Shown: positions 57 to 43,588 of the stretch, in pieces
Layout: each line of letters begins with the position of its first letter
How positions within the stretch are numbered: position 1 is the stretch's first letter
From: Hydractinia symbiolongicarpus
Taxonomy: Eukaryota; Cnidaria; Hydrozoa; Anthoathecata; Hydractiniidae
Assembly: GCF_029227915.1 (NCBI RefSeq)
Contig: NC_079881.1
Location: forward strand, 9,116,001 to 9,180,000
Direction: 5' to 3'
Length of the DNA: 64,000 bases
Notes under the pieces: generated by a model
Databases searched by the model: none
Seen by the model: the letters and a program-made list of their open reading frames with translations, nothing else
What the model was told of the DNA's origin: nothing
Position numbers and translations under genes: made by a program

Positions 57-154
57 ACGCTACTGCAACCGTATCCATATGTATATGCGAACATTCCAGT
101 CATTACTTCAGGACAAGCAAACAGCAAGGCAACATCAAGAAACATCAAGAAATG

Positions 155-2286: not shown

Positions 2287-2300
2287 AAATAACAAATATG

Positions 2301-2310
2301 TATATATATA
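2301..2310 (+). promoter_or_regulatory. TATA-like box of the large gene
   Basis: A TATATATATA run lies between the CRE palindrome and the ATG at 2367. If used, transcription would start near 2330. The in-frame ATG at 2298 would then fall outside the transcript, which supports 2367 as the start. The run is simple sequence, so it could be chance. Confidence 0.4.
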
Positions 2311-2366
2311 CGGTGACAATATTTCATGGCATCATTATTCGTGAGTGGGAGTTTTACATAGTCAAG

Positions 2367-7117: not shown

Positions 7118-7306
7118 AGAAGGCTGGGAACGAGATTGTCACTGGCGTTTCATGGTAGCTGGAGAACTGGTAAGTCGTAAGTTTTCCTGTTTTATATAGA
7201 TTAAGAAGTCTGTAACGATACATAACAGTCATTTTAGCTCTATAAGTTTGTTAAATTTTCTTAAAGATTGCAGACCCAAAATCACTTAAAAGTCTTATCT
7301 GCACGT
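7118..7306. repeat. Weakly related left edge of the tandem array
   Basis: The bases around 7120-7143 (CTGGGAACGAGATTGTCACT) closely match the unit junction at 9477-9496 (CTGGGAACAGAATTGTCACT). The following 150 bases match poorly. The true left boundary of the first unit may therefore lie here, worn down by divergence. The alternative is that a dispersed CTGGGAACGAG element sits at this place by chance. Confidence 0.4.
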
Positions 7307-8066
7307 TCATATAGGCACGGACAGCAGACGAAACGGTGAGGAAATTCAATAAAACATTGTAATAAAATGTATTATTGGAATATATTTACAAAACATAATT
7401 TACAAAAAATAATAGACGTATATCCCACCCTACCTTTATCACAAAAAGACCTTTATAAAACCTATTAACACGATGAGAATTTAAGACAAGAATTGATGGA
7501 AACAAAATAAGGCTTTGTCGGGTATTTGCCGCCGTTCCACAACAAAATCTTACGAATACTTCCATTTTTAGTCCAGTCTCTATGAGCAAAAAGAAGTGGC
7601 CGGTAAAACCTCACAAAACCAAAGAAAATTTTAAAAGCGAATCGAAGAATAAAAAATATTAAAGAGATACTTTATCAGGACAAGTATGCTATCAGGAGTG
7701 ATCTTCAATTTAGCGAAATAACTCAAGCCTTTGTTGCCGCCTATTCACAAAAACTTGATAGTGATCACACTAAGAAATAAAACGCATCGGACTAAAATAC
7801 TTGTTAAAAGTATTTTATGGGTGCGTGACGATAGCATGGCCTTTGAAAATGCCTAGAGAAAATATTTTCCAAAAAATTCAGAGAAAAGACTTCGGAAAAA
7901 ACAAAAAAGAGTCAGAAAAAGCATCATGGAAGAAATTGAGAAAAAATTAATCAGAAAAACGGATTCAGAAAAAACTAAACGGGAAAAAAACAATTTTAAA
8001 AGAAAATTAAAACAAAAAACAGATTTAGAAAAAAATGGATAAAGGTAGGGTAGGGTAAGGGAAGAA

Positions 8067-9002
8067 TTAAAACTTTTGTACTTCAGCAGCATGCAATTGA
8101 AGAAGTTCTTCAACTTCCTCAATCGCAGCCGCGACTTTCAATTTCTTTTTGGAAAGCTTTCTTGGAAAGATTTTGCAAAAGAAATTGTTACGCAAAACCT
8201 TTGTAACACCATCACACTTTTTGCGAAGCACGGTGGTGAAGCTTATTGTTTGTTGTTTACATTTCTTATATCGTTCATCTTGCTCAGCAAGTTTTTTCTT
8301 AAGATTCTCTATGGCATCCTTTTGATAAGCACCATTAACCTCCAGCTCTTTCATTTTGCATTCCATATTAAAAATGCACCGATTCAATCCATCGTTTTCC
8401 TTTGCAAAAACATTACGTTCACCTGTCACCTTCTCGAGTAGTTCTTCAACTTTGATTCTTTTCATCTTTTCACTCTCACAATCTTCAACAGCTTCCGCAG
8501 CCATCTTTTCCACAGGTTTTATTGCCTGCTGAATGATTTCTGGAATCGCATTTACTTTTGTGCTTAATTGGTCGAATACTGCATCACATTCTTTGTTACA
8601 ATCTTTGATTACTTGCTCTAGATGTTGAATCTGCTGCAGATGCTTTTTATTTATGTCTTCGTTCTTCGTTCTCCTTTCTACTTTTCTTCTCTCCTTTGAG
8701 AGCTTGAGTTAAAGATGTTAACTTGTCTTCATAAACTTCGTTTATTTCCTGAAAAATAAAGTAAATTCGCGCTAATAATTTGTAGCGAGATGCAAAAATT
8801 TCTTTTGTGTGTCGTTTTGTCACTCCATTTGTTTATATTATACCATGTATTTCAAAAAATGATGAAAAAGTTAGGGTCTAACAGGATGATGTTACACCGA
8901 AATTATAAGCTCTGTTTCAAGTTTTGTCACCTTTTTTACAGGTTTCATGTCAGCAACATTATAGCTGTTAGTTTCCATTCTAGAGGGCAGTATCACTTCC
9001 AT
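8067..9002 (-). pseudogene. Coiled-coil gene, array copy 1, broken
   Basis: Exon 1 (8931-9002) and its splice donor look intact. Exon 2 (8067-8748) is 682 bp instead of 675 because seven extra bases near 8656-8668 duplicate part of GTTCTTCGTTC. This shifts the frame about 30 codons into exon 2. The Met codon that opens exon 2 in other copies is ATA here. Only the last 148 codons remain open. It is the outermost left unit and carries the most differences, for example Ser to Asn in exon 1 and a Glu to Gln near residue 188. Loss of function at the array edge, where homogenisation is weakest, is the likely reading. Confidence 0.75.
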
Positions 9003-10363
9003 CTGTCACTGAGTATTGGCGCGATGTAAAAGACGTTATTCGACGTCAAATGTTTTGCTATTAACCTGACGTAATAGTTCAAAATGGTTACCAGATACTT
9101 AGAAATGGCAAGTAAAATGAGCCTAAAGCATGATTTCGCAAATAGAAGCCATGAGGAAATACACCCTATACGTAAAAAATAACAAAGCGTCCCATTTGTT
9201 AAATGAGAAGTGCGTGAGGGATTCCAAAAACATATATCGCAGAGAGAACATGCTCCATTTCTTGGTTGTTTTAGTCACACAGTTTTGTGTGATCGCACAC
9301 CTATTTCGATGCGCCCAATGCATTTGCGACACATCTAAAGCTTGCACTCCTTTCTTTTGCTAATGTAAAGTCAACAGCCGAGTGGATTGCCCGGGGGGTC
9401 CAGGGGTCAACGCCCCCCAGGCGGGATTTGCATATGATGTCAAAGTATATTAGAAGAAGCAAAAGTTTAAAAGAGCTGGGAACAGAATTGTCACTCTAGA
9501 ATTTCAGGATCGGTCAGAGCATGGGCATATCACATCTTAAGTCTAACCGCTTCCTAAATTTGGTCAATGTTGGCGACTTAAATTCAGTTGAAAGTTTTCT
9601 TGTCCATATAGGCACGGAGAACAGACGAAACGGTGAGGAAATTCAATAAACCATTGTAATAAAATGTATTATTGGAATATATTTACAAAACATAATTTAC
9701 AAAAAATAATAGACGTATATCCCACCCTACCTTTATCACAAAAAGACCTTTATAAAACCTATTAACACGATGAGAATTTAAGACAAGAATTGATGGAAAC
9801 AAAATAAGGCTTTGTCGGGTATTTGCCGCCGTTCCACAACAAAATCTTACGAATACTTCCATTTTTAGTCCAGTCTCTATGAGCAAAAAGAAGTGGCCGG
9901 TAAAACCTCACAAAACCAAAGAAAATTTTAAAAGCGAATCGAAGAATAAAAAATATTAAAGAGATACTTTATCAGGACAAGTATGCTATCAGGAGTGATC
10001 TTTAATTTAGCGAAATAACTCAAGCTTCTGTTGCCGCCTATTCACAAAAACTTGATAGTGATCACACTAAGAAATAAAACGCATCGGACTAAAATACTTG
10101 TTAAAAGTATTTTATGGGTGCGTGACGATAGCATGGCCTTTGAAAATGCCTAGAGAAAATATTTTCCAAAAAATTCAGAGAAAAGACTTCGGAAAAAACA
10201 AAAAAGAGTCAGAAAAAGCATCATGGAAGAAATTGAGAAAAAATTAATCAGAAAAACGGATTCAGAAAAAACTAAACGGGAAAAAAACAATTTTAAAAGA
10301 AAATTAAAACAAAAAACAGATTTAGAAAAAAATGGATAAAGGTAGGGTAGGGTAAGGGAAGAA

Positions 10364-11291
10364 TTAAAACTTTTGTACTTCAGCAGCATGCAATTGAAGA
10401 AGTTCTTCAACTTCCTCAATCGCAGCCGCGACTTTCAATTTCTTTTTGGAAAGCTTTCTTGGAAAGATTTTGCAAAAGAAATTGTTACGCAAAACCTTTG
10501 TAACACCATCACACTTTTTGCGAAGCACGGTGGTGAAGCTTATTGTTTCTTGTTTACATTTCTTATATCGTTCATCTTGCTCAGTAAGTTTTTTCTTAAG
10601 ATTCTCTATGGCATCCTTTTGATAAGCACCATTAACCTCCAGCTCTTTCATTTTGCATTCCATATTGAAAATGCACCGATTCAATCCATCGTTTTCCTTT
10701 GCAAAAACATTACGTTCACCTGTCACCTTCTCGAGTAGTTCTTCAACTTTGATTCTTTTCATCTTTTCACTCTCACAATCTTCAACAGCTTCCGCAGCCA
10801 TCTTTTCCACAGGTTTTATTGCCTGCTGAATGATTTCTGGAATCGCATTTACTTTTGTGCTTAATTGGTCGAATACTGCATCACATTCTTTGTTACAATC
10901 TTTGATTACTTGCTCTAGATGTTGAATCTGCTGCAGATGCTTTTTATTTATGTCTTCGTTCTCCTTTCTACTTTTCTTCTCTCCTTCGAGAGCTTGAGTT
11001 AAAGATGTTAACTTGTCTTCATAAACTTCGTTCATTTCCTGAAAAATAAAGTAAATTCGCGTTAACAAATTGTAGCGAGATAAAAAAATTCTTTTGTGTG
11101 TCGTTTTGCCACTCCATTTGTTTAGACTTTACCATGTATTTCAAAAAATGATGAAAAAGTTAGAGTCTAACAGGATGATGTTACACCGAAATTATAAGCT
11201 CTGTTTCAAATTTTGTCACCTTTTTTACAGGTTTCATGTCAGCAACATTATAGCTGCTAGTTTCCATTCTAGAAGGCAGTATCACTTCCAT
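10364..11291 (-). CDS. Coiled-coil protein, array copy 2
   Basis: Exon 1 is 11220-11291 and exon 2 is 10364-11038. The intron is one base shorter than in copies 3 to 16. The protein differs from the majority form by Ala176 to Thr. Both splice sites and the stop are intact. See copy 3 for the full description. This copy groups with copy 1 in several spacer variants, so it belongs to the older left part of the array. Confidence 0.62.
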
Positions 11292-12424
11292 CTGTCACTG
11301 AGTATTTGCGCGATGTAAAAGACGTTATTTGACGTCAAATGTTTTGCTATTAACCTGACGTAATAGTTCAAAATGGTTACCAGATACTTAGAAATGGCAA
11401 GTAAAATGAGCCTAAAGCATGATTTCGCAAATAGAAGCCATGAGAAAATACACCCGATACGTAAAAAATAACAAAGCGTCCCATTTGTTAAATGAGAAGC
11501 GCGTGAGGGATTCCAAAAACATATATCGCAGAGAGAACATGCTCCATTTCTTGGTTGTTTTAGTCACACAGTTTTGTGTGATCGCACACCTATTTCGATG
11601 CGCCCAATGCATTTGCGACACATCTAAAGCTTGCACTCCTTTCTTTTGCTAATGTAAAGTCAACAGCCGAGTGGATTGCCTGGGGGGTCCAGGGGGGCAG
11701 CGCCCACCAGGCGGGATTTGCATATGATGTCAAAGTATATTAGAAGAAGCAAAAGTTTAAAAGAGCTGGGAACAGAATTTTAGGATCGGTCAGAGCATGG
11801 GCATATCACATTTTAAGTCTAGCCGCTTCCTAAATTTGGTCAATGTTGGCGACTTAAATTCAGTTGAAAGTTTTCTCGTCCATATAGACACGGAGAACAG
11901 ACGAAACAGTGAGGAAATTCAATAAAACATTGTAATAAAATGTATTATTGGAATATATTTACAAAACATAATTTACAAAAAATAATAGACGTATATCCCA
12001 CCCTACCTTTATCACAAAAAGACCTTTATAAAACCTATTAACACGATGAGAATTAAAGACAAGAATTAATGGAAACAAAATAAGGCTTCGTCGGGTATTT
12101 GCCGCCGTTCCACAACAAAATCTTACGAATACTTCCATTTTTAGTCCAGTCTCTATAAGCAAAAAGAAGTGGCCGGTAAAACCTCACAAAACCAAAGAAA
12201 ATTTTAAAAGCGAATCAAAGAATAAAAAATATTAAAGAGATACTTTATCAGGACAAGTATGCTATCAGGATTGATCTTTAATTTAGCGAAATAACTCAAG
12301 CTTCTGTTGCCGCCTATTCACAAAAACTTGAAAGTGATCACACTAAGAAAAAAAACGCATCGGTCTAAAATACTTGTTAAAAGTATTTTATGGGTGCGTA
12401 ACGATAGCATGGACTTTGAAAATG

Positions 12425-12610
12425 CCTAGAGAAAATATTTTCCAAAAAATTCAGAGAAAAGACTTCGGAAAAAACAAAAAAGAGTCAGAAAAAGCATCAT
12501 GGAAGAAATTGAGAAAAAATTAATCAGAAAAACGGATTCAGAAAAAACTAATCAGGAAAAAAACAATTTTAAAAGAAAATTAAAAAAAAAACAGATTTAG
12601 AAAAAAATGG
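12425..12610 (+). repeat. A-rich degenerate tract in each unit
   Basis: About 185 bp of strongly purine-rich sequence on the plus strand with recurring CAGAAAAA and GAGAAAAAA words. The period is irregular. It lies downstream of the coiled-coil gene, so the transcript would be U-rich there, as in a 3' UTR. No protein-coding signal is kept. The same tract recurs in all 16 units, with small indels in the A-runs. Confidence 0.5.
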
Positions 12611-12615
12611 ATAAA

Positions 12616-12633
12616 GGTAGGGTAGGGTAAGGG
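12616..12633 (+). repeat. Telomere-like G-rich motif after the stop codon (each unit)
   Basis: GGTAGGGTAGGGTAAGGG has four G-runs and could fold as a two-layer G-quadruplex. It lies from 23 to 6 bp before the plus-strand coordinate of each gene's end, so on the transcript it is a C-rich element directly after the stop. All 16 units keep it. A role in 3' end formation, replication pausing or recombination is possible but only inferred. Confidence 0.5.
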
Positions 12634-12638
12634 AAGAA

Positions 12639-13567
12639 TTAAAACTTTTGTACTTCAGCAGCATGCAATTGAAGAAGTTCTTCAACTTCCTCAATCGCAG
12701 CCGCGACTTTCAATTTCTTTTTGGAAAGCTTTCTTGGAAAGATTTTGCAAAAGAAATTGTTACGCAAAACCTTTGTAACACCATCACACTTTTTGCGAAG
12801 CACGGTGGTGAAGCTTATTGTTTCTTGTTTACATTTCTTATATTGTTCATCTTGCTCAGCAAGTTTTTTCTTAAGATTCTCTATGGCATCCTTTTGATAA
12901 GCACCATTAACCTCCAGCTCTTTCATTTTGCATTCCATATTGAAAATGCACCGATTCAATCCATCGTTTTCCTTTGCAAAAACATTACGTTCACCTGTCA
13001 CCTTCTCGAGTAGTTCTTCAACTTTGATTCTTTTCATCTTTTCACTCTCACAATCTTCAACAGCTTCCGCAGCCATCTTTTCCACAGGTTTTATTGCCTG
13101 CTGAATGATTTCTGGAATCGCATTTACTTTTGTGCTTAATTGGTCGAATACTGCATCACATTCTTTGTTACAATCTTTGATTACTTGCTCTAGATGTTGA
13201 ATCTGCTGCAGATGCTTTTTATTTATGTCTTCGTTCTCCTTTCTACTTTTCTTCTCTCCTTCGAGAGCTTGAGTTAAAGATGTTAACTTGTCTTCATAAA
13301 CTTCGTTCATTTCCTGAAAAATAAAGTAAATTCGCGTTAACAAATTGTAGCGAGATGCAAAAAATTCTTTTGTGTGTCGTTTTGCCACTCCATTTGTTTA
13401 GACTTTACCATGTATTTCAAAAAATGATGAAAAAGTTAGGGTCTAACAGGATGATGTTACACCGAAATTATAAGCTCTGTTTCAAATTTTGTCACCTTTT
13501 TTACAGGTTTCATGTCAGCAACATTATAGCTGCTAGTTTCCATTCTAGAAGGCAGTATCACTTCCAT
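12639..13567 (-). CDS. Coiled-coil protein, array copy 3 (reference description, two exons, 248 aa)
   Basis: I do not recognise the family. Exon 2 (12639-13313) is open for 224 codons and starts right after a strong acceptor (TTTACTTTATTTTTCAG). Its frame has no ATG upstream: the longer open frame begins at GTG and is closed by a TAA. Exon 1 is proposed as 13496-13567: an ATG after an in-frame TGA, a second ATG at 13543 in a better Kozak context (AGAATGG), and a donor AAAAAG|GTGACA. The 182 bp intron contains CCCTAAC, a good branch site, and splicing is phase 0. If exon 1 is wrong, translation could start at the Met of exon 2 (residue 26) to give 223 residues. Predicted coiled coils lie near 26-76 and 102-186, and a basic segment with RKLSKKKLK at 218-226 could be a nuclear localisation signal. 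There is no signal peptide or membrane segment. This copy has Gln at 181 where most have Arg. Confidence 0.65.
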
Positions 13568-13602
13568 CTGTCACTGAGTATTTGCGCGATGTAAAAGACG
13601 TT

Positions 13603-13616
13603 ATTTGACGTCAAAT
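13603..13616. promoter_or_regulatory. CRE palindrome of the array gene (unit 3 as example)
   Basis: ATTTGACGTCAAAT lies 36 bp upstream of the first exon-1 ATG. It recurs at 11327, 13603, 15878, 18154, 20430, 22707, 24984, 27261, 29537, 31814, 34091, 36368, 38645, 40922 and 43199 (start positions). In unit 1 (9038-9051) one base is changed, giving CGACGTCA and breaking the full CRE. The position suggests a proximal promoter for a CREB/ATF-type bZIP factor. No TATA box is visible between it and the ATG. Confidence 0.55.
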
Positions 13617-13631
13617 GTTTTGCTATTAACC

Positions 13632-13639
13632 TGACGTAA
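13632..13639. promoter_or_regulatory. Second CRE-like site in each array promoter
   Basis: TGACGTAA (TTACGTCA on the gene strand) lies 26 bp from the full CRE core, start to start, and is present in every unit including the first. Paired CRE sites at a fixed spacing in the same promoter strengthen the case for bZIP control. Confidence 0.45.
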
Positions 13640-14913
13640 TAGTTCAAAATGGTTACCAGATACTTAGAAATGGCAAGTAAAATGAGCCTAAAGCATGATT
13701 TCGCAAATAGAAGCCATGAGAAAATACACCCGATACGTAAAAAATAACAAAGCGTCCCATTTGTTAAATGAGAAGCGCGTGAGGGATTCCAAAAACATAT
13801 ATCGCAGAGAGAACATGCTCCATTTCTTGGTTGTTTTAGTCACACAGTTTTGTGCGATCGCACACCTATTTCGATGCGCCCAATGCATTTGCGACACATC
13901 TAAAGCTTGCACTCCTTTCTTTTGCTAATGTAAAGTCAACAGCCGAGTGGATTGCCCGGGGGGTCCAGGGGGGCAGCGCCCACCAGGCGGGATTTGCATA
14001 TGATGTCAAAGTATATTAGAAGAAGCAAAAGTTTAAAAGAGCTGGGAACAGAATTTTAGGATCGGTCAGAGCATGGGCATATCACATTTTAAGTCTAGCC
14101 GCTTCCTAAATTTGGTCAATGTTGGCGACTTAAATTCAGTTGAAAGTTTTCTCGTCCATATAGACACGGAGAACAGACGAAACAGTGAGGAAATTCAATA
14201 AAACATTGTAATAAAATGTATTATTGGAATATATTTACAAAACATAATTTACAAAAAATAATAGACGTATATCCCACCCTACCTTTATCACAAAAAGACC
14301 TTTATAAAACCTATTAACACGATGAGAATTAAAGACAAGAATTAATGGAAACAAAATAAGGCTTCGTCGGGTATTTGCCGCCGTTCCACAACAAAATCTT
14401 ACGAATACTTCCATTTTTAGTCCAGTCTCTATAAGCAAAAAGAAGTGGCCGGTAAAACCTCACAAAACCAAAGAAAATTTTAAAAGCGAATCAAAGAATA
14501 AAAAATATTAAAGAGATACTTTATCAGGACAAGTATGCTATCAGGATTGATCTTTAATTTAGCGAAATAACTCAAGCTTCTGTTGCCGCCTATTCACAAA
14601 AACTTGAAAGTGATCACACTAAGAAAAAAAACGCATCGGTCTAAAATACTTGTTAAAAGTATTTTATGGGTGCGTGACGATAGCATGGACTTTGAAAATG
14701 CCTAGAGAAAATATTTTCCAAAAAATTCAGAGAAAAGACTTCGGAAAAAACAAAAAAGAGTCAGAAAAAGCATCATGGAAGAAATTGAGAAAAAATTAAT
14801 CAGAAAAACGGATTCAGAAAAAACTAATCAGGAAAAAAACAATTTTAAAAGAAAATTAAAAAAAAACAGATTTAGAAAAAAATGGATAAAGGTAGGGTAG
14901 GGTAAGGGAAGAA

Positions 14914-15842
14914 TTAAAACTTTTGTACTTCAGCAGCATGCAATTGAAGAAGTTCTTCAACTTCCTCAATCGCAGCCGCGACTTTCAATTTCTTTTTGGA
15001 AAGCTTTCTTGGAAAGATTTTGCAAAAGAAATTGTTACGCAAAACCTTTGTAACACCATCACACTTTTTGCGAAGCACGGTGGTGAAGCTTATTGTTTCT
15101 TGTTTACATTTCTTATATCGTTCATCTTGCTCAGCAAGTTTTTTCTTAAGATTCTCTATGGCATCCTTTTGATAAGCACCATTAACCTCCAGCTCTTTCA
15201 TATTGCATTCCATATTGAAAATGCACCGATTCAATCCATCGTTTTCCTTTGCAAAAACATTACGTTCACCTGTCACCTTCTCGAGTAGTTCTTCAACTTT
15301 GATTCTTTTCATCTTTTCACTCTCACAATCTTCAACAGCTTCCGCAGCCATCTTTTCCACAGGTTTTATTGCCTGCTGAATGATTTCTGGAATCGCATTT
15401 ACTTTTGTGCTTAATTGGTCGAATACTGCATCACATTCTTTGTTACAATCTTTGATTACTTGCTCTAGATGTTGAATCTGCTGCAGATGCTTTTTATTTA
15501 TGTCTTCGTTCTCCTTTCTACTTTTCTTCTCTCCTTCGAGAGCTTGAGTTAAAGATGTTAACTTGTCTTCATAAACTTCGTTCATTTCCTGAAAAATAAA
15601 GTAAATTCGCGTTAACAAATTGTAGCGAGATGCAAAAAATTCTTTTGTGTGTCGTTTTGCCACTCCATTTGTTTAGACTTTACCATGTATTTCAAAAAAT
15701 GATGAAAAAGTTAGGGTCTAACAGGATGATGTTACACCGAAATTTTAAGCTCTGTTTCAAATTTTGTCACCTTTTTTACAGGTTTCATGTCAGCAACATT
15801 ATAGCTGCTAGTTTCCATTCTAGAAGGCAGTATCACTTCCAT
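14914..15842 (-). CDS. Coiled-coil protein, array copy 4
   Basis: Exons are 15771-15842 and 14914-15588. The only protein change from the majority form is Lys153 to Asn, in the second coiled coil. An intron base also differs, changing TTATAAG to TTTTAAG on the plus strand near 15744. Confidence 0.65.
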
Positions 15843-17189
15843 CTGTCACTGAGTATTTGCGCGATGTAAAAGACGTTATTTGACGTCAAATGTTTTGCTA
15901 TTAACCTGACGTAATAGTTCAAAATGGTTACCAGATACTTAGAAATGGCAAGTAAAATGAGCCTAAAGCATGATTTCGCAAATAGAAGCCATGAGAAAAT
16001 ACACCCGATACGTAAAAAATAACAAAGCGTCCCATTTGTTAAATGAGAAGCGCGTGAGGGATTCCAAAAACATATATCGCAGAGAGAACATGCTCCATTT
16101 CTTGGTTGTTTTAGTCACACAGTTTTGTGCGATCGCACACCTATTTCGATGCGCCCAATGCATTTGCGACACATCTAAAGCTTGCACTCCTTTCTTTTGC
16201 TAATGTAAAGTCAACAGCCGAGTGGATTGCCCGGGGGGTCCAGGGGGGCAGCGCCCACCAGGCGGGATTTGCATATGATGTCAAAGTATATTAGAAGAAG
16301 CAAAAGTTTAAAAGAGCTGGGAACAGAATTTTAGGATCGGTCAGAGCATGGGCATATCACATTTTAAGTCTAGCCGCTTCCTAAATTTGGTCAATGTTGG
16401 CGACTTAAATTCAGTTGAAAGTTTTCTCGTCCATATAGACACGGAGAACAGACGAAACGGTGAGGAAATTCAATAAAACATTGTAATAAAATGTATTATT
16501 GGAATATATTTACAAAACATAATTTACAAAAAAAAATAGACGTATATCCCACCCAACCTTTATCACAAAAAGACCTTTATAAAACCTATTAACACGATGA
16601 GAATTAAAGACAAGAATTAATGGAAACAAAATAAGGCTTCGTCGGGTATTTGCCGCCGTTCCACAACAAAATCTTACGAATACTTCCATTTTTAGTCCAG
16701 TCTCTATAAGCAAAAAGAAGTGGCCGGTAAAACCTCACAAAACCAAAGAAAATTTTAAAAGCGAATCGAAGAATAAAAAATATTAAAGAGATACTTTATC
16801 AGGACAAGTATGCTATCAGGATTGATCTTTAATTTAGCGAAATACCTCAAGCTTCTGTTGCCGCCTATTCACAAAAACTTGACAGTGATCACACTAAGAA
16901 AAAAAACGCATCGGTCTAAAATACTTGTTAAAAGTATTTTATGGGTGCGTGACGATAGCATGGACTTTGAAAATGCCTAGAGAAAATATTTTCCAAAAAA
17001 TTCAGAGAAAAGACTTCGGAAAAAACAAAAAAGAGTCAGAAAAAGCATCATGGAAGAAATTGAGAAAAAATTAATCAGAAAAACGGATTCAGAAAAAACT
17101 AATCGGGAAAAAAACAATTTTAAAAGAAAATTAAAAAAAAAACAGATTTAGAAAAAAATGGATAAAGGTAGGGTAGGGTAAGGGAAGAA

Positions 17190-33126: not shown

Positions 33127-34055
33127 TTAAAACTTTTGTACTTCAGCAGCATGCAATTGAAGAAGTTCTTCAACTTCCTCAATCGCAGCCGCGACTTTCA
33201 ATTTCTTTTTGGAAAGCTTTCTTGGAAAGATTTTGCAAAAGAAATTGTTACGCAAAACCTTTGTAACACCATCACACTTTTTGCGAAGCACGGTGGTGAA
33301 GCTTATTGTTTCTTGTTTACATTTCTTATATCGTTCATCTTGCTCAGCAAGTTTTTTCTTAAGATTCTCTATGGCATCCTTTTGATAAGCACCATTAACC
33401 TCCAGCTCTTTCATTTTGCATTCCATATTGAAAATGCACCGATTCAATCCATCGTTTTCCTTTGCAAAAACATTACGTTCACCTGTCACCTTCTCGAGTA
33501 GTTCTTCAACTTTGATTCTTTTCATCTTTTCACTCTCACAATCTTCAACAGCTTCCGCAGCCATCTTTTCCACAGGTTTTATTGCCTGCTGAATGATTTC
33601 TGGAATCGCATTTACTTTTGTGCTTAATTGGTCGAATACTGCATCACATTCTTTGTTACAATCTTTGATTACTTGCTCTAGATGTTGAATCTGCTGCAGA
33701 TGCTTTTTATTTATGTCTTCGTTCTCCTTTCTACTTTTCTTCTCTCCTTCGAGAGCTTGAGTTAAAGATGTTAACTTGTCTTCATAAACTTCGTTCATTT
33801 CCTGAAAAATAAAGTAAATTCGCGTTAACAAATTGTAGCGAGATGCAAAAAATTCTTTTGTGTGTCGTTTTGCCACTCCATTTGTTTAGACTTTACCATG
33901 TATTTCAAAAAATGATGAAAAAGTTAGGGTCTAACAGGATGATGTTACACCGAAATTATAAGCTCTGTTTCAAATTTTGTCACCTTTTTTACAGGTTTCA
34001 TGTCAGCAACATTATAGCTGCTAGTTTCCATTCTAGAAGGCAGTATCACTTCCAT
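33127..34055 (-). CDS. Coiled-coil protein, array copy 12
   Basis: Exons are 33984-34055 and 33127-33801. The protein is the majority form. The spacer to its right has the older GGATCGGTC variant (34547-34555) surrounded by units with GGATTGGTC, a possible gene-conversion patch. Confidence 0.65.
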
Positions 34056-35403
34056 CTGTCACTGAGTATTTGCGCGATGTAAAAGACGTTATTTGACGTC
34101 AAATGTTTTGCTATTAACCTGACGTAATAGTTCAAAATGGTTACCAGATACTTAGAAATGGCAAGTAAAATGAGCCTAAAGCATGATTTCGCAAATAGAA
34201 GCCATGAGAAAATACACCCGATACGTAAAAAATAACAAAGCGTCCCATTTGTTAAATGAGAAGCGCGTGAGGGATTCCAAAAACATATATCGCAGAGAGA
34301 ACATGCTCCATTTCTTGGTTGTTTTAGTCACACAGTTTTGTGTCATCGCACACCTATTTCCAATGCGCCCAATGCATTTGCGACACATCTAAAGCTTGCA
34401 CTCCTTTCTTTTGCTAATGTAAAGTCAACAGCCGAGTGGATTGCTTGGGGGGTCCAGGGGGGCAGCGCCCACCAGGCGGGATTTGCATATGATGTCAAAG
34501 TATATTAGAAGAAGCAAAAGTTTAAAAGAGCTGGGAACAGAATTTTAGGATCGGTCAGAGCATGGGCATATCACATTTTAAGTCTAGCCGCTTCCAAAAT
34601 TTGGTCAATGTTGGCGACTTAAATTCAGTTGAAAGTTTTCTCGTCCATATAGACACGGAGAACAGACGAAACGGTGAGGAAATTCAATAAAACATTGTAA
34701 TAAAATGTATTATTGGAATATATTTACAAAACATAATTTACAAAAAATAATAGACGTATATCCCACCCAACCTTTATCACAAAAAGACCTTTATAAAACC
34801 TATTAACACGATGAGAATTAAAGACAAGAATTAATGGAAACAAAATAAGGCTTCGTCGGGTATTTGCCGCCGTTCCACAACAAAATCTTACGAATACTTC
34901 CATTTTTAGTCCAGTCTCTATAAGCAAAAAGAAGTGGCCGGTAAAACCTCACAAAACCAAAGAAAATTTTAAAAGCGAATCGAAGAATAAAAAATATTAA
35001 AGAGATACTTTATCAGGACAAGTATGCTATCAGGATTGATCTTTAATTTAGCGAAATAACTCAAGCTTCTGTTGCCGCCTATTCACAAAAACTTGACAGT
35101 GATCACACTAAGAAAAAAAACGCATCAGTCTAAAATACTTGTTAAAAGTATTTTATGGGTGCGTGACGATAGCATGGACTTTGAAAATGCCTAGAGAAAA
35201 TATTTTCCAAAAAATTCAGAGAAAAGACTTCGGAAAAAACAAAAAAGAGTCAGAAAAAGCATCATGGAAGAAATTGAGAAAAAATTAATCAGAAAAACGG
35301 ATTCAGAAAAAACTAATCGGGAAAAAAACAATTTTAAAAGAAAATTAAAAAAAAAACAGATTTAGAAAAAAATGGATAAAGGTAGGGTAGGGTAAGGGAA
35401 GAA

Positions 35404-36332
35404 TTAAAACTTTTGTACTTCAGCAGCATGCAATTGAAGAAGTTCTTCAACTTCCTCAATCGCAGCCGCGACTTTCAATTTCTTTTTGGAAAGCTTTCTT
35501 GGAAAGATTTTGCAAAAGAAATTGTTACGCAAAACCTTTGTAACACCATCACACTTTTTGCGAAGCACGGTGGTGAAGCTTATTGTTTCTTGTTTACATT
35601 TCTTATATCGTTCATCTTGCTCAGCAAGTTTTTTCTTAAGATTCTCTATGGCATCCTTTTGATAAGCACCATTAACCTCCAGCTCTTTCATTTTGCATTC
35701 CATATTGAAAATGCACCGATTCAATCCATCGTTTTCCTTTGCAAAAACATTACGTTCACCTGTCACCTTCTCGAGTAGTTCTTCAACTTTGATTCTTTTC
35801 ATCTTTTCACTCTCACAATCTTCAACAGCTTCCGCAGCCATCTTTTCCACAGGTTTTATTGCCTGCTGAATGATTTCTGGAATCGCATTTACTTTTGTGC
35901 TTAATTGGTCGAATACTGCATCACATTCTTTGTTACAATCTTTGATTACTTGCTCTAGATGTTGAATCTGCTGCAGATGCTTTTTATTTATGTCTTCGTT
36001 CTCCTTTCTACTTTTCTTCTCTCCTTCGAGAGCTTGAGTTAAAGATGTTAACTTGTCTTCATAAACTTCGTTCATTTCCTGAAAAATAAAGTAAATTCGC
36101 GTTAACAAATTGTAGCGAGATGCAAAAAATTCTTTTGTGTGTCGTTTTGCCACTCCATTTGTTTAGACTTTACCATGTATTTCAAAAAATGATGAAAAAG
36201 TTAGGGTCTAACAGGATGATGTTACACCGAAATTATAAGCTCTGTTTCAAATTTTGTCACCTTTTTTACAGGTTTCATGTCAGCAACATTATAGCTGCTA
36301 GTTTCCATTCTAGAAGGCAGTATCACTTCCAT
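35404..36332 (-). CDS. Coiled-coil protein, array copy 13
   Basis: Exons are 36261-36332 and 35404-36078. The protein is the majority form. The spacers on both sides share CTTCCAAAATTTGG, which other units have as CTTCCTAAATTTGG. Confidence 0.65.
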
Positions 36333-37680
36333 CTGTCACTGAGTATTTGCGCGATGTAAAAGACGTTATTTGACGTCAAATGTTTTGCTATTAACCTGAC
36401 GTAATAGTTCAAAATGGTTACCAGATACTTAGAAATGGCAAGTAAAATGAGCCTAAAGCATGATTTCGCAAATAGAAGCCATGAGAAAATACACCCGATA
36501 CGTAAAAAATAACAAAGCGTCCCATTTGTTAAATGAGAAGCGCGTGAGGGATTCCAAAAACATATATCGCAGAGAGAACATGCTCCATTTCTTGGTTGTT
36601 TTAGTCACACAGTTTTGTGTCATCGCACACCTATTTCCAATGCGCCCAATGCATTTGCGACACATCTAAAGCTTGCACTCCTTTCTTTTGCTAATGTAAA
36701 GTCAACAGCCGAGTGGATTGCTTGGGGGGTCCAGGGGGGCAGCGCCCACCAGGCGGGATTTGCATATGATGTCAAAGTATATTAGAAGAAGCAAAAGTTT
36801 AAAAGAGCTGGGAACAGAATTTTAGGATTGGTCAGAGCATGGGCATATCACATTTTAAGTCTAGCCGCTTCCAAAATTTGGTCAATGTTGGCGACTTAAA
36901 TTCAGTTGAAAGTTTTCTCGTCCATATAGACACGGAGAACAGACGAAACGGTGAGGAAATTCAATAAAACATTGTAATAAAATGTATTATTGGAATATAT
37001 TTACAAAACATAATTTACAAAAAATAATAGACGTATATCCCACCCAACCTTTATCACAAAAAGACCTTTATAAAACCTATTAACACGATGAGAATTAAAG
37101 ACAAGAATTAATGGAAACAAAATAAGGCTTCGTCGGGTATTTGCCGCCGTTCCACAACAAAATCTTACGAATACTTCCATTTTTAGTCCAGTCTCTATAA
37201 GCAAAAAGAAGTGGCCGGTAAAACCTCACAAAACCAAAGAAAATTTTAAAAGCGAATCGAAGAATAAAAAATATTAAAGAGATACTTTATCAGGACAAGT
37301 ATGCTATCAGGATTGATCTTTAATTTAGCGAAATAACTCAAGCTTCTGTTGCCGCCTATTCACAAAAACTTGACAGTGATCACACTAAGAAAAAAAACGC
37401 ATCAGTCTAAAATACTTGTTAAAAGTATTTTATGGGTGCGTGACGATAGCATGGACTTTGAAAATGCCTAGAGAAAATATTTTCCAAAAAATTCAGAGAA
37501 AAGACTTCGGAAAAAACAAAAAAGAGTCAGAAAAAGCATCATGGAAGAAATTGAGAAAAAATTAATCAGAAAAACGGATTCAGAAAAAACTAATCGGGAA
37601 AAAAACAATTTTAAAAGAAAATTAAAAAAAAAACAGATTTAGAAAAAAATGGATAAAGGTAGGGTAGGGTAAGGGAAGAA

Positions 37681-38609
37681 TTAAAACTTTTGTACTTCAG
37701 CAGCATGCAATTGAAGAAGTTCTTCAACTTCCTCAATCGCAGCCGCGACTTTCAATTTCTTTTTGGAAAGCTTTCTTGGAAAGATTTTGCAAAAGAAATT
37801 GTTACGCAAAACCTTTGTAACACCATCACACTTTTTGCGAAGCACGGTGGTGAAGCTTATTGTTTCTTGTTTACATTTCTTATATCGTTCATCTTGCTCA
37901 GCAAGTTTTTTCTTAAGATTCTCTATGGCATCCTTTTGATAAGCACCATTAACCTCCAGCTCTTTCATTTTGCATTCCATATTGAAAATGCACCGATTCA
38001 ATCCATCGTTTTCCTTTGCAAAAACATTACGTTCACCTGTCACCTTCTCGAGTAGTTCTTCAACTTTGATTCTTTTCATCTTTTCACTCTCACAATCTTC
38101 AACAGCTTCCGCAGCCATCTTTTCCACAGGTTTTATTGCCTGCTGAATGATTTCTGGAATCGCATTTACTTTTGTGCTTAATTGGTCGAATACTGCATCA
38201 CATTCTTTGTTACAATCTTTGATTACTTGCTCTAGATGTTGAATCTGCTGCAGATGCTTTTTATTTATGTCTTCGTTCTCCTTTCTACTTTTCTTCTCTC
38301 CTTCGAGAGCTTGAGTTAAAGATGTTAACTTGTCTTCATAAACTTCGTTCATTTCCTGAAAAATAAAGTAAATTCGCGTTAACAAATTGTAGCGAGATGC
38401 AAAAAATTCTTTTGTGTGTCGTTTTGCCACTCCATTTGTTTAGACTTTACCATGTATTTCAAAAAATGATGAAAAAGTTAGGGTCTAACAGGATGATGTT
38501 ACACCGAAATTATAAGCTCTGTTTCAAATTTTGTCACCTTTTTTACAGGTTTCATGTCAGCAACATTATAGCTGCTAGTTTCCATTCTAGAAGGCAGTAT
38601 CACTTCCAT
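37681..38609 (-). CDS. Coiled-coil protein, array copy 14
   Basis: Exons are 38538-38609 and 37681-38355. The protein is the majority form. The junction to its right reads GCCAAGTGG, as after copies 11 and 16, while other units have GCCGAGTGG. Confidence 0.65.
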
Positions 38610-39957
38610 CTGTCACTGAGTATTTGCGCGATGTAAAAGACGTTATTTGACGTCAAATGTTTTGCTATTAACCTGACGTAATAGTTCAAAATGGTTACCA
38701 GATACTTAGAAATGGCAAGTAAAATGAGCCTAAAGCATGATTTCGCAAATAGAAGCCATGAGAAAATACACCCGATACGTAAAAAATAACAAAGCGTCCC
38801 ATTTGTTAAATGAGAAGCGCGTGAGGGATTCCAAAAACATATATCGCAGAGAGAACATGCTCCATTTCTTGGTTGTTTTAGTCACACAGTTTTGTGTCAT
38901 CGCACACCTATTTCCAATGCGCCCAATGCATTTGCGACACATCTAAAGCTTGCACTCCTTTCTTTTGCTAATGTAAAGTCAACAGCCAAGTGGATTGCTT
39001 GGGGGGTCCAGGGGGGCAGCGCCCACCAGGCGGGATTTGCATATGATGTCAAAGTATATTAGAAGAAGCAAAAGTTTAAAAGAGCTGGGAACAGAATTTT
39101 AGGATTGGTCAGAGCATGGGCATATCACATTTTAAGTCTAGCCGCTTCCTAAATTTGGTCAATGTTGGCGACTTAAATTCAGTTGAAAGTTTTCTCGTCC
39201 ATATAGACACGGAGAACAGACGAAACGGTGAGGAAATTCAATAAAACATTGTAATAAAATGTATTATTGGAATATATTTACAAAACATAATTTACAAAAA
39301 ATAATAGACGTATATCCCACCCAACCTTTATCACAAAAAGACCTTTATAAAACCTATTAACACGATGAGAATTAAAGACAAGAATTAATGGAAACAAAAT
39401 AAGGCTTCGTCGGGTATTTGCCGCCGTTCCACAACAAAATCTTACGAATACTTCCATTTTTAGTCCAGTCTCTATAAGCAAAAAGAAGTGGCCGGTAAAA
39501 CCTCACAAAACCAAAGAAAATTTTAAAAGCGAATCGAAGAATAAAAAATATTAAAGAGATACTTTATCAGGACAAGTATGCTATCAGGATTGATCTTTAA
39601 TTTAGCGAAATAACTCAAGCTTCTGTTGCCGCCTATTCACAAAAACTTGACAGTGATCACACTAAGAAAAAAAACGCATCAGTCTAAAATACTTGTTAAA
39701 AGTATTTTATGGGTGCGTGACGATAGCATGGACTTTGAAAATGCCTAGAGAAAATATTTTCCAAAAAATTCAGAGAAAAGACTTCGGAAAAAACAAAAAA
39801 GAGTCAGAAAAAGCATCATGGAAGAAATTGAGAAAAAATTAATCAGAAAAACGGATTCAGAAAAAACTAATCGGGAAAAAAACAATTTTAAAAGAAAATT
39901 AAAAAAAAAACAGATTTAGAAAAAAATGGATAAAGGTAGGGTAGGGTAAGGGAAGAA

Positions 39958-40886
39958 TTAAAACTTTTGTACTTCAGCAGCATGCAATTGAAGAAGTTCT
40001 TCAACTTCCTCAATCGCAGCCGCGACTTTCAATTTCTTTTTGGAAAGCTTTCTTGGAAAGATTTTGCAAAAGAAATTGTTACGCAAAACCTTTGTAACAC
40101 CATCACACTTTTTGCGAAGCACGGTGGTGAAGCTTATTGTTTCTTGTTTACATTTCTTATATCGTTCATCTTGCTCAGCAAGTTTTTTCTTAAGATTCTC
40201 TATGGCATCCTTTTGATAAGCACCATTAACCTCCAGCTCTTTCATTTTGCATTCCATATTGAAAATGCACCGATTCAATCCATCGTTTTCCTTTGCAAAA
40301 ACATTACGTTCACCTGTCACCTTCTCGAGTAGTTCTTCAACTTTGATTCTTTTCATCTTTTCACTCTCACAATCTTCAACAGCTTCCGCAGCCATCTTTT
40401 CCACAGGTTTTATTGCCTGCTGAATGATTTCTGGAATCGCATTTACTTTTGTGCTTAATTGGTCGAATACTGCATCACATTCTTTGTTACAATCTTTGAT
40501 TACTTGCTCTAGATGTTGAATCTGCTGCAGATGCTTTTTATTTATGTCTTCGTTCTCCTTTCTACTTTTCTTCTCTCCTTCGAGAGCTTGAGTTAAAGAT
40601 GTTAACTTGTCTTCATAAACTTCGTTCATTTCCTGAAAAATAAAGTAAATTCGCGTTAACAAATTGTAGCGAGATGCAAAAAATTCTTTTGTGTGTCGTT
40701 TTGCCACTCCATTTGTTTAGACTTTACCATGTATTTCAAAAAATGATGAAAAAGTTAGGGTCTAACAGGATGATGTTACACCGAAATTATAAGCTCTGTT
40801 TCAAATTTTGTCACCTTTTTTACAGGTTTCATGTCAGCAACATTATAGCTGCTAGTTTCCATTCTAGAAGGCAGTATCACTTCCAT
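39958..40886 (-). CDS. Coiled-coil protein, array copy 15
   Basis: Exons are 40815-40886 and 39958-40632. The protein is the majority form. Two private changes (GAGATAACCTGCTCC near 41125) lie in the upstream spacer. Confidence 0.65.
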
Positions 40887-42234
40887 CTGTCACTGAGTAT
40901 TTGCGCGATGTAAAAGACGTTATTTGACGTCAAATGTTTTGCTATTAACCTGACGTAATAGTTCAAAATGGTTACCAGATACTTAGAAATGGCAAGTAAA
41001 ATGAGCCTAAAGCATGATTTCGCAAATAGAAGCCATGAGAAAATACACCCGATACGTAAAAAATAACAAAGCGTCCCATTTGTTAAATGAGAAGCGCGTG
41101 AGGGATTCCAAAAACATATATCGCAGAGATAACCTGCTCCATTTCTTGGTTGTTTTAGTCACACAGTTTTGTGTCATCGCACACCTATTTCCAATGCGCC
41201 CAATGCATTTGCGACACATCTAAAGCTTGCACTCCTTTCTTTTGCTAATGTAAAGTCAACAGCCGAGTGGATTGCTTGGGGGGTCCAGGGGGGCAGCGCC
41301 CACCAGGCGGGATTTGCATATGATGTCAAAGTATATTAGAAGAAGCAAAAGTTTAAAAGAGCTGGGAACAGAATTTTAGGATTGGTCAGAGCATGGGCAT
41401 ATCACATTTTAAGTCTAGCCGCTTCCTAAATTTGGTCAATGTTGGCGACTTAAATTCAGTTGAAAGTTTTCTCGTCCATATAGACACGGAGAACAGACGA
41501 AACGGTGAGGAAATTCAATAAAACATTGTAATAAAATGTATTATTGGAATATATTTACAAAACATAATTTACAAAAAATAATAGACGTATATCCCACCCA
41601 ACCTTTATCACAAAAAGACCTTTATAAAACCTATTAACACGATGAGAATTAAAGACAAGAATTAATGGAAACAAAATAAGGCTTCGTCGGGTATTTGCCG
41701 CCGTTCCACAACAAAATCTTACGAATACTTCCATTTTTAGTCCAGTCTCTATAAGCAAAAAGAAGTGGCCGGTAAAACCTCACAAAACCAAAGAAAATTT
41801 TAAAAGCGAATCGAAGAATAAAAAATATTAAAGAGATACTTTATCAGGACAAGTATGCTATCAGGATTGATCTTTAATTTAGCGAAATAACTCAAGCTTC
41901 TGTTGCCGCCTATTCACAAAAACTTGACAGTGATCACACTAAGAAAAAAAACGCATCAGTCTAAAATACTTGTTAAAAGTATTTTATGGGTGCGTGACGA
42001 TAGCATGGACTTTGAAAATGCCTAGAGAAAATATTTTCCAAAAAATTCAGAGAAAAGACTTCGGAAAAAACAAAAAAGAGTCAGAAAAAGCATCATGGAA
42101 GAAATTGAGAAAAAATTAATCAGAAAAACGGATTCAGAAAAAACTAATCGGGAAAAAAACAATTTTAAAAGAAAATTAAAAAAAAAACAGATTTAGAAAA
42201 AAATGGATAAAGGTAGGGTAGGGTAAGGGAAGAA

Positions 42235-43163
42235 TTAAAACTTTTGTACTTCAGCAGCATGCAATTGAAGAAGTTCTTCAACTTCCTCAATCGCAGCCGC
42301 GACTTTCAATTTCTTTTTGGAAAGCTTTCTTGGAAAGATTTTGCAAAAGAAATTGTTACGCAAAACCTTTGTAACACCATCACACTTTTTGCGAAGCACG
42401 GTGGTGAAGCTTATTGTTTCTTGTTTACATTTCTTATATCGTTCATCTTGCTCAGCAAGTTTTTTCTTAAGATTCTCTATGGCATCCTTTTGATAAGCAC
42501 CATTAACCTCCAGCTCTTTCATTTTGCATTCCATATTGAAAATGCACCGATTCAATCCATCGTTTTCCTTTGCAAAAACATTACGTTCACCTGTCACCTT
42601 CTCGAGTAGTTCTTCAACTTTGATTCTTTTCATCTTTTCACTCTCACAATCTTCAACAGCTTCCGCAGCCATCTTTTCCACAGGTTTTATTGCCTGCTGA
42701 ATGATTTCTGGAATCGCATTTACTTTTGTGCTTAATTGGTCGAATACTGCATCACATTCTTTGTTACAATCTTTGATTACTTGCTCTAGATGTTGATTCT
42801 GCTGCAGATGCTTTTTATTTATGTCTTCGTTCTCCTTTCTACTTTTCTTCTCTCCTTCGAGAGCTTGAGTTAAAGATGTTAACTTGTCTTCATAAACTTC
42901 GTTCATTTCCTGAAAAATAAAGTAAATTCGCGTTAACAAATTGTAGCGAGATGCAAAAAATTCTTTTGTGTGTCGTTTTGCCACTCCATTTGTTTAGACT
43001 TTACCATGTATTTCAAAAAATGATGAAAAAGTTAGGGTCTAACAGGATGATGTTACACCGAAATTATAAGCTCTGTTTCAAATTTTGTCACCTTTTTTAC
43101 AGGTTTCATGTCAGCAACATTATAGCTGCTAGTTTCCATTCTAGAAGGCAGTATCACTTCCAT
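42235..43163 (-). CDS. Coiled-coil protein, array copy 16 (right end)
   Basis: Exons are 43092-43163 and 42235-42909. It has Asn62 like copy 9. Unlike the left-end copy it is intact and typical, so decay affects only the left edge. Its upstream region ends at the last GC-rich hairpin, so its promoter must lie within about 430 bp or extend into unique sequence. Confidence 0.65.
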
Positions 43164-43564
43164 CTGTCACTGAGTATTTGCGCGATGTAAAAGACGTTAT
43201 TTGACGTCAAATGTTTTGCTATTAACCTGACGTAATAGTTCAAAATGGTTACCAGATACTTAGAAATGGCAAGTAAAATGAGCCTAAAGCATGATTTCGC
43301 AAATAGAAGCCATGAGAAAATACACCCGATACGTAAAAAATAACAAAGCGTCCCATTTGTTAAATGAGAAGCGCGTGAGGGATTCCAAAAACATATATCG
43401 CAGAGAGAACATGCTCCATTTCTTGGTTGTTTTAGTCACACAGTTTTGTGTCATCGCACACCTATTTCCAATGCGCCCAATGCATTTGCGACACATCTAA
43501 AGCTTGCACTCCTTTCTTTTGCTAATGTAAAGTCAACAGCCAAGTGGATTGCTTGGGGGGTCCA

Positions 43565-43581
43565 GGGGGGCAGCGCCCCCC
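43565..43581. repeat. GC-rich hairpin at unit junctions (perfect form at array end)
   Basis: GGGGGGC, loop AGC, GCCCCCC forms a perfect 7 bp stem, flanked by GGGGTCCA and AGGCGGG, in an otherwise AT-rich region. Inner junctions carry GCCCACC, which breaks one stem pair; the unit 1 junction (9397-9425) has a different worn form. The array ends a few bases after this copy. It could be the terminus of the element that founded the array. Confidence 0.55.
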
Positions 43582-43588
43582 AGGCGGG

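Follow-up and report, generated by a model that had tools for sequence, protein, structure and literature searches.

To our knowledge, apart from histones, toxins and a small number of dose-dependent products, protein-coding genes are seldom arranged in long near-identical tandem arrays. The mouse Slx/Sly genes, whose proteins are coiled-coil in nature, are described as multi-copy, lineage-specific, sex-linked and in conflict. Within the Nv1 sodium-channel toxin cluster of Nematostella vectensis, 14 of 18 copies are reported to be 99% alike at the mRNA level, and copy number is reported to correlate with transcript and protein level (PMC9842752). The tandem ncRNA arrays described from Hydractinia carry rRNA, tRNA, spliceosomal or snoRNA genes (PMC11067881), and the CREM/CREB-driven spermatid genes of mammals are described as having a TGACGTCA core near their starts and as sharing one differentiation programme (PMC10454534, PMC3091680). 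Against this background, the present analysis concerns a conserved unnamed Hydractinia gene. Within a single genome it appears to have formed arrays on two occasions, and a promoter palindrome ties it to other duplicated unknowns. The window is the whole 64,000-nt stretch of scaffold 7 that was analysed.

Layout and homogenisation of the array

BLAST with one unit identified 16 head-to-tail gene units of 2.28 kb on the minus strand (7304-43491; period 2277 bp), followed by a 98-bp partial copy; both array ends therefore lie inside the window. Units 2-16 measure 2275-2289 bp, and unit 1, at the left edge, is decayed and shortened to 2026 bp. Coding and spacer DNA are both near-identical between copies, and exon 2 is open in all units but unit 1. 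The earlier note's proposal of a 16-copy repeat of a complete gene, 15 of them intact, is thus borne out by BLAST and by the exon 2 frames. With near-identical copies, mostly intact frames and local duplication, the locus has these structural properties of a homogenised tandem protein-gene array of the Nv1 type. Rfam gave no matches in the window at gathering scores and none when two units were searched at E values up to 1, and the known structural RNA per unit that characterises Hydractinia ncRNA arrays was not found.

The copy number depends on HiFi reads with an N50 of 13.2 kb, less than the length of the array (36 kb), and an assembly could in principle have inflated or scrambled the copies. 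This is highly improbable: all 16 units are distinct, the closest pair being one base apart, which speaks against trivial assembly duplication; the order of the units is informative in units 3-16, though not within 9-16; and the flanks of the array within the window bear no resemblance to the unit.

Units 9-16 differ from each other at a mean of only 3.9 sites per 2277, in keeping with recent expansion, which had been proposed, or with homogenisation. Private variants are common to neighbouring units and divergence rises with distance. Among units 3-16, 8 of the 12 sites with two carriers have them in adjacent units (chance, 13/91), five of these eight coming from one unit pair and hence not being independent. 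Units 2-16 show 4 replacement changes where 18.5 were expected and no silent changes where 4.3 were expected. Since silent sites are depleted like replacement sites, homogenisation alone could explain the uniformity of the array, and within-array variation alone is no proof of protein-level selection. The depletion of both classes of site, together with a gradient running from left to right and doublets of adjacent units, both typical of unequal crossing-over, would also be expected if the locus were simply prone to such exchange and recombination homogenised extra copies that bring no benefit. Duplication of the neighbouring gene as well, and the many other kinds of tandem array described from Hydractinia (PMC11067881), likewise favour neutral tandem duplication.

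Features of the array and of the neighbouring gene. Residue numbers of unit variants follow the 248-aa model.
Feature	Position	Strand	Basis
Whole array, 16 gene units and right-end 98-bp partial unit	7304..43589	-	BLAST with one unit
Unit 1 exon 2 region, disrupted (7-bp insertion, frameshift)	8067..8748	-	
Unit 1 palindrome, mutated	9036-9051	-	
Unit 2 exon 2, intact, A176T	10364..11038	-	
Unit 3 exon 2, intact, R181Q	12639..13313	-	
Unit 4 exon 2, intact, K153N	14914..15588	-	
Unit 5 exon 2, intact, R181Q	17190..17864	-	
Unit 6 exon 2, intact, R181Q	19466..20140	-	
Unit 7 exon 2, intact	21743..22417	-	
Unit 8 exon 2, intact	24020..24694	-	
Unit 9 exon 2, intact, I62N	26297..26971	-	
Unit 10 exon 2, intact	28573..29247	-	
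Unit 11 exon 2, intact, donor GTGAGA vs GTGACA	30850..31524	-	
Unit 12 exon 2, intact	33127..33801	-	
Unit 13 exon 2, intact	35404..36078	-	
Unit 14 exon 2, intact	37681..38355	-	
Unit 15 exon 2, intact	39958..40632	-	
Unit 16 exon 2, intact, I62N	42235..42909	-	
Unit 16 exon 1 coding part, from conserved inner ATG (METSSYNVADMKPVKK)	43092..43139	-	
Unit 16 outer ATG of 248-aa model	starts 43163	-	
Unit 16 intron, GTGACA...TTTTTCAG, 182 bp	42910..43091	-	
Unit 16 palindromic bZIP/CRE-type site ATTTGACGTCAAATAA	43197..43212	-	exact in 15/16 units
Unit 16 upstream conserved block GGTAACCATTTTGAACTATTACGTCA	43228..43253	-	alignment of 11 promoters
Unit 16 3'-region inverted repeat arm 1, directly past stop codon	42206..42225	-	unit 15 position + 2277
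Unit 16 3'-region inverted repeat arm 2	41590..41609	-	unit 15 position + 2277
Same 16-mer ATTTGACGTCAAATAA upstream of unrelated neighbour gene	2273..2288	+	
Neighbour gene, two exons (to 3893; 3981-4826), likely start 2367	2298..4826	+	splice sites by eye

The predicted product and its gene family

The window gene has two exons and is intact in 15 of 16 units; copy 1 carries the frameshift and an altered Met26, and copy 11 remains intact with its variant donor. The longest frame per unit spans 252 codons, compared with at most 186 among 500 dinucleotide shuffles. The outer ATG of the 248-residue model put forward in the earlier note was found, among 20 promoters compared, only in the window gene, whereas an inner ATG that leads into an open exon 1 occurs in 18 of them; this conservation makes a shorter product likelier, and the protein is probably 240 aa rather than 248. 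The outer ATG is also present in the truncated relative L022.

Structure prediction returned helices only, with low confidence (mean pLDDT 61.8 for the single sequence, 58.1 when 11 family sequences were supplied), and a heptad-type period is weak beyond the N-terminal part (in three segments, 268, 30 and 76 of 1000 shuffles). Searches of Pfam, NCBIfam and PDB with the window protein gave no match near a cut-off, in agreement with the original view that it resembles no known multi-copy product. SlyX, SMC and other weak Pfam/NCBIfam matches, at E 0.003 or worse, fall far under the cut-offs, are typical of coiled coils and were rejected. Pattern scans of viral contigs (8 matches) and prokaryotic genome contigs (43 matches) produced zero confirmed relatives.

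The gene had been treated as a lone one, but a whole-genome search returned 68 matches and makes it one branch of a family that includes ten open tandem copies on scaffold 14, dispersed open copies and decayed copies. The scaffold 14 relatives are 63-64% identical to the window gene with exon 2 open in all ten; of nine dispersed full-length copies, eight have exon 2 open and seven have both exons open. Units of the two arrays match at most over unit positions 294-2038 and their spacers are unrelated, while a member of the scaffold 14 array (T06) shows a dS of 0.33-0.40 to the family members L015-L019 versus 1.40 to the window gene. Differing spacers and this dS pattern point to two separate amplifications, and the scaffold 14 array seems to have been built separately from another family branch.

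Across ten family members the 224 codons of exon 2 contain no internal indel, and dN/dS between the window gene and the nine others is 0.15-0.28; judged by these ratios, the family is under purifying selection. The dN/dS comparison suggested earlier, made here with paralogs instead of related species, therefore came out away from 1. A reading of the array as satellite DNA was rejected, since such ratios across paralogs mark a constrained frame. Neutral tandem duplication has to contend with one family having formed two arrays, on two scaffolds and with different spacers, in which 25 of the 26 copies retain an open exon 2, and we regard it as unlikely. Selection for high dose, as first proposed, draws indirect support from the second array with its different spacers.

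A multi-copy, coiled-coil-like gene that has been amplified more than once and has many decayed relatives also recalls selfish or drive-related amplification of the mouse Slx/Sly type, in which conflict drives copy number up. The arrays lie on scaffolds 7 and 14, away from the reported sex chromosome, which is most likely chromosome 1 (PMC10411563); dN/dS is low rather than raised, and no Pfam family reaches its cut-off. Conflict is thus a quite improbable cause.

A palindromic site common to duplicated genes

A CRE/bZIP-type palindrome, ATTTGACGTCAAAT, lies 60-75 nt upstream of the conserved start. The exact sequence is present in 15 of the 16 window copies, all ten on scaffold 14 and six of the nine dispersed copies; two of the three dispersed copies that lack it are also frame-broken (L018, in exon 1, and L020), and L019 is intact yet lacks the exact palindrome. 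With a TGACGTCA core, a putative binding site, near the start, the family has one feature of CRE-controlled germline genes. A scan for bacterial sigma-70 sites (18 found, 13.1 expected) has no bearing on the promoter-like sites proposed for each unit; the conserved palindrome provides the promoter evidence.

Genome-wide, the palindrome occurs at 88 sites, all but 23 of them examined here, compared with a single site for the reversed control. A frame of at least 200 codons starts no more than 300 nt downstream at 11 of 29 further palindrome loci, with no such frame at the other 18; for random positions drawn from these loci the figure is 333 of 9829. The proteins encoded behind these palindromes are mostly unnamed, duplicated, and coiled-coil-like or basic, one having a pI of 10.6. 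A Pfam scan of ten such frames identified one, an ADAM protease; a HIRAN-like match fell just under its cut-off, and the rest had none above cut-off. ADAMs occur beyond sperm. The neighbour gene in the window, itself duplicated with a 4.77-kb period, has a promoter whose longest string in common with that of the window gene is 16 nt (at most 12 in 60 resamples), and BLASTP of its two exons and 36-residue repeats detected no similarity to the window protein. For HAP2, a known sperm gene, one exon was located on C9, the sequence covered stopping short of the gene's 5' end; the single TGACGTCA that the 3.1-kb locus L053 holds in another context weighs neither for nor against a germline role.

Amplification for a somatic cell type, such as nematocytes, would differ from a germline reading only in the cell concerned. 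The CRE-type site is not germ-cell-specific, which speaks for this reading. Inspection of the window protein by eye found no signal peptide and no toxin-like cysteine pattern, the two features of cnidarian toxin families, and among the other palindrome genes the pI 10.6 protein and the ADAM lean weakly to sperm; a somatic destination is rather unlikely. The male germline is the leading candidate, proposed tentatively and with the odds somewhat against it.

Proposed dose amplification and its relation to known systems

Taken together, the array, the second array and the common site suggest that some cell type of the animal requires large amounts of this protein. In our judgement a fairly probable explanation is a family of structural proteins that is co-regulated and amplified for dose, where the estimate refers to dose amplification within a co-regulated set and excludes the germline step. 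On this reading, selection for dose would have multiplied a gene whose product is a helical coiled-coil protein of 240 residues. Unequal crossing-over among adjacent units would have built the 16-copy array on scaffold 7 and would still be homogenising it, while a different family branch would have expanded separately into the 10-copy array on scaffold 14. Every copy would have its own compact promoter with the palindromic bZIP/CRE-type site, so that, if transcribed, each added copy would raise output wherever the bZIP/CRE factor we infer is active. Because the same site precedes several other duplicated genes for coiled-coil-like or basic proteins, the array can be read as part of one differentiation programme, which may make an abundant structural assembly. 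A bolder extension, which we consider doubtful, is that one long bZIP palindrome is the mark of a germline differentiation programme in Hydractinia. The targets of this programme, for the most part unknown coiled-coil-like and basic proteins, would have been expanded again and again, each time independently, to give tandem arrays or recent duplicates; all copies would retain a promoter of their own and a 3' region that a conserved 19-bp helix closes off, and copy number would be the tuning knob. The 88 palindrome sites give initial access to a group of unnamed genes, and with genetic engineering protocols (PMC7098123) and a single-cell atlas (PMC11067881) available for Hydractinia, the link between copy number, regulatory site and cell-type output is directly testable.

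Compared with the mammalian CREM/CREB targets, the window family likewise has the core near its starts and may belong to one programme, and the putative bZIP/CRE-type site in Hydractinia is a longer palindrome. The ncRNA arrays come from the same genus, and the window unit codes for protein instead. The window family resembles Slx/Sly in being multi-copy, of coiled-coil type and apparently lineage-specific, but the Hydractinia arrays lie off the reported sex-chromosome scaffold. Nv1, like the window array, is a cnidarian single gene in tandem with singlet and multiplet duplications (PMC9842752); it encodes a toxin, whereas the Hydractinia gene encodes a coiled-coil-like protein, and the Hydractinia case, known here from one assembly, adds to this pattern another array formed by the same family, whose spacers differ, and a palindrome that also lies before unrelated genes.

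Layout of the array and divergence of its units

The earlier note had described sixteen 2.28-kb units, fifteen of them with an intact gene, and this was borne out by BLAST and by frame checks of every unit. In the exception, unit 1, the frame is thrown out by a 7-bp insertion, and there are further changes. BLAST phasing placed both termini within the window: unit 1 is short by 258 bp, and unit 16 is followed by a 98-bp partial copy that stops at 43589, beyond which the flanking DNA is unlike the unit. The longest frame per unit is 252 codons; none of 500 shuffled versions of the unit has one above 186. The G-rich element GGGGGGTCCAGGGGG may mark recombination or an old insertion. It is present at the right breakpoint, within the partial unit, together with an intact hairpin arm GCGCCCCCC, and unit 2 has a variant form. 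No description of the array was found in the literature, as judged from titles and abstract openings of mostly non-subscription papers, with the 14-mer described below not among the query terms.

No two of the 16 units are identical. Divergence is greatest in units 1 and 2, and among units 3-16 it rises the farther apart two units lie (Mantel r 0.60, P 0.0001). Of the 12 variants carried by exactly two of these 14 units, eight are shared by direct neighbours (P 5e-5 on the assumption of independence), five of the eight coming from the pair 3/4 and two from 5/6. Units 9-16 differ by a mean of 3.9 sites, unrelated to their order. Judged from the unit sequences, this is the pattern that repeated unequal crossing-over would leave. 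Variable sites in units 2-16 number 4 of 747 in coding sequence and 47 of 1530 elsewhere (Fisher P 3e-5); the corresponding counts are 3 and 27 for units 3-16 (P 0.006) and 10 and 67 for all 16 units (P 1e-4). Since all four coding changes in units 2-16 are replacements and silent coding sites are depleted as well (0 seen, 4.3 expected, P 0.013), this contrast alone is no proof of selection at the protein level.

Features of the array, its relatives and its neighbours (window numbering unless a scaffold, C, is named)
Feature	Position	Strand	Details
Tandem array, 16 direct 2.28-kb units	7304-43589	minus	period analysis and BLAST of one unit
G-rich element GGGGGGTCCAGGGGG	15 places, 11682 to 43555		each of units 3-16 and the right-end partial unit
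3'-region inverted repeat with TGTAAATA word after it	41552-41609 and 42206-42225		example
16-mer ATTTGACGTCAAATAA upstream of neighbour gene	2273-2288		same 16-mer as in the array
Four 108-bp repeats per neighbour-gene copy	157-587 and 4927-5353		past stop codon; largely open, 36-residue repeats
SH2 protein resembling suppressors of cytokine signalling	59411-60142	minus	Pfam SH2; best PDB matches SOCS3, SOCS2
Second array, ten consecutive open copies	C14:9055530-9077893		period about 2437 or 2490
Truncated close relative (L022)	C7:8969745		87% identity over 60 residues
Long coiled-coil-like protein	palindrome loci		935-943 codons; four copies, 95-100% identical; coiled coil called by eye
Second coiled-coil-like protein	palindrome loci		885-887 codons; two copies, 92% identical; coiled coil called by eye
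Very basic protein	palindrome loci		372 and 334 codons, 88% identical; the 372-codon one has pI 10.6
ADAM metalloprotease	one palindrome locus		disintegrin and cysteine-rich domains
Relatives of neighbour gene	two palindrome loci

The gene family and its predicted protein

The genome searched comprised 480,894,487 bases in 76 contigs, with the window at C7:9116001-9180000 on scaffold 7, and is slightly smaller than the published HSymV2.0 totals of 482,928,323 bases and 84 sequences (PMC10411563). According to the same source, the assembly derives from male clone 291-10 with a HiFi N50 of 13.2 kb, and the sex chromosome is most likely chromosome 1. The array gene gave 68 matches, counting exon pieces and decayed copies; next to the sixteen copies of the window, these include a second array on scaffold 14 and nine full-length dispersed copies, plus many decayed pieces. 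Of the nine dispersed copies only L020, with two stops, lacks an open exon 2, and exon 1 is open from a conserved ATG to the GT donor in all but L018 and L020 (7/9). The window gene was compared by NG86 with the eight dispersed copies whose exon 2 is open and with T06, a copy from scaffold 14, over 224 codons, an alignment with zero internal indels. dN/dS against these nine relatives was 0.15-0.28, although the ratios are approximate because dS to the window gene (0.8-1.4) is close to saturation. Across all 45 pairs the range was 0.15-0.71, the highest value belonging to L015/L016, which are just twelve changes apart. Among the conserved parts are FNMECK.KELEV, NF.CKIFPRK.SKKKL and portions of the C-terminal helix. 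The array gene very probably belongs to a genuine family of proteins kept by purifying selection.

The scaffold-7 unit matches those of scaffold 14 within unit positions 294-2038 at most, at about 71% identity, two of the copies having a shorter or split match; the remainder of the unit has none. T06 has a dS of 0.33-0.40 to the dispersed copies L015-L019, versus 1.40 to the window gene, and exon 2 differs at 0-10 sites among the ten scaffold-14 copies. Since the rest of the unit is unmatched and T06 is nearer to L015-L019 than to the window gene, we infer from these sequences at least two separate amplifications.

The inner ATG is present in 11/11 aligned promoters, of which only that of the window gene has the outer one; the 248-residue product of the earlier note is therefore replaced by a 240-aa model. 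The protein is predicted, with low confidence, to be helical. Hydrophobic residues recur in it with a period of ~3.5, at a power that 0/1000 residue shuffles reach for the full protein or for residues 25-110; taken alone, residues 111-190, 121-190 and 191-248 were matched by 268, 30 and 76 of 1000. The pI is 8.0, the last quarter is basic, and the 15 intact copies encode five protein versions, one of them common to eight copies.

A palindrome shared with other genes

Starting 49 nt 5′ of the outer ATG, the gene strand of 15/16 window units carries ATTTGACGTCAAATAA exactly, and the decayed unit 1 has it with one mismatch. The same 16-mer precedes the neighbour gene, whose two proteins showed no BLASTP similarity to the array protein, and is the longest string common to the two upstream regions (60 Markov resamples gave none above 12). 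Its 14-bp core is exact in 10/10 scaffold-14 copies and 6/9 dispersed copies. Variant sites are CTGACGTCAAAT in L018 and L019 and GAGGTCA in L020; L018 and L020 have broken frames, and L019 is intact. Few changes were seen across the 11-promoter alignment in GTAGCCATTTTGAA..CTATTACGTCA, then in the palindrome and then in a block 5′ of the inner ATG.

Genome-wide, the 14-mer occurs 88 times and its reversed control once. The fifty sites listed comprise 15 in the window array, one at the neighbour gene, three in L017 and L022 and 31 at 29 further loci (L024-L052), one of which, L043, holds a decayed copy from the family; counting 15 additional family sites seen in retrieved sequence, 65/88 are accounted for. 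Among the matches listed, a frame that reaches the threshold of 200 codons, and indeed 300, begins within 300 nt downstream at 11 of the 29 loci; for positions drawn at random from these loci the count is 333/9829 (3.4%) with 200 codons and 172/9807 with 300. The enrichment has P 1e-9 by loci and 7e-4 when our own grouping is applied (five families in 22 groups). No frame of at least 200 codons starts within 300 nt downstream at the remaining 18/29. Some sites may have been carried along on repeats, since L026 and L034 have reverse-transcriptase-like frames (by eye) and L024 and L025 on scaffold 1 have flanks identical in the displayed bases, with no downstream frame of 85 codons or more. On scaffold 4, three palindrome genes at 0.91-1.01 Mb (L031-L033) recur 8.6 Mb away at 9.55-9.64 Mb (L035-L037) in the same order and orientation and with similar spacing, which points to either a duplicated segment of about 92 kb or a duplicate made in assembly.

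The neighbour gene, with a lysine-rich N-terminus and an acidic second exon, is itself a tandem duplicate of 4.77-kb period (1-5827; L023), with exon 1 broken in the upstream copy. Scaffold 7 has more relatives at 4.6, 8.98 and 11.7 Mb, and scaffold 4 has decayed ones. The 108-bp repeats are possibly an alternative last exon.

The 3′ region and the proposed working of the array

Over the first 750 nt past the stop the window gene is 0.67-0.73 identical to seven family members, and over the following 500 nt 0.39-0.48; the T06 alignment is limited to 246 columns (0.77) owing to a deletion. A 20-nt arm directly after the stop can pair with an arm usually 536-640 nt downstream. In each of 11 distinct sequences (19/20 genes; L016 was omitted, its second arm being visible but outside the search pattern) 15-19 of 19 positions pair, 195/209 cells in all, and five sequences taken singly paired at 17-19 versus at most 14-16 in 200 shuffles. 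Relative to the commonest type two pairs are altered on both sides, and a third only between rarer types. Because arms swapped between sequences pair almost as well (mean 191; 195 reached in 16/2000 trials), the signal is mostly conservation, with slight covariation. T06 lacks most of the loop and keeps both arms. TGTANATA, presumably a Pumilio site, occurs in 18/20 genes and lies 3′ of the second arm in the window gene. The 19-bp inverted repeat and TGTANATA are possible leads for translational control.

The existence of two arrays, with several duplicates also placed behind this palindrome, suggests that a high output of the gene set is favoured. In this reading each unit stands as a gene on its own; were a bZIP factor to bind the palindrome, output would scale with copy number, and crossing-over would adjust the number of copies. 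Dose amplification within a co-regulated set is the reading towards which we lean. The male germline is a more doubtful proposal as the site of use; proteins of coiled-coil type, along with a basic one and an ADAM, would suit sperm differentiation. In mammals, CREM is reported to recognise TGACGTCA (PMC10454534), and its activator isoform to work in spermatids (PMC3091680).
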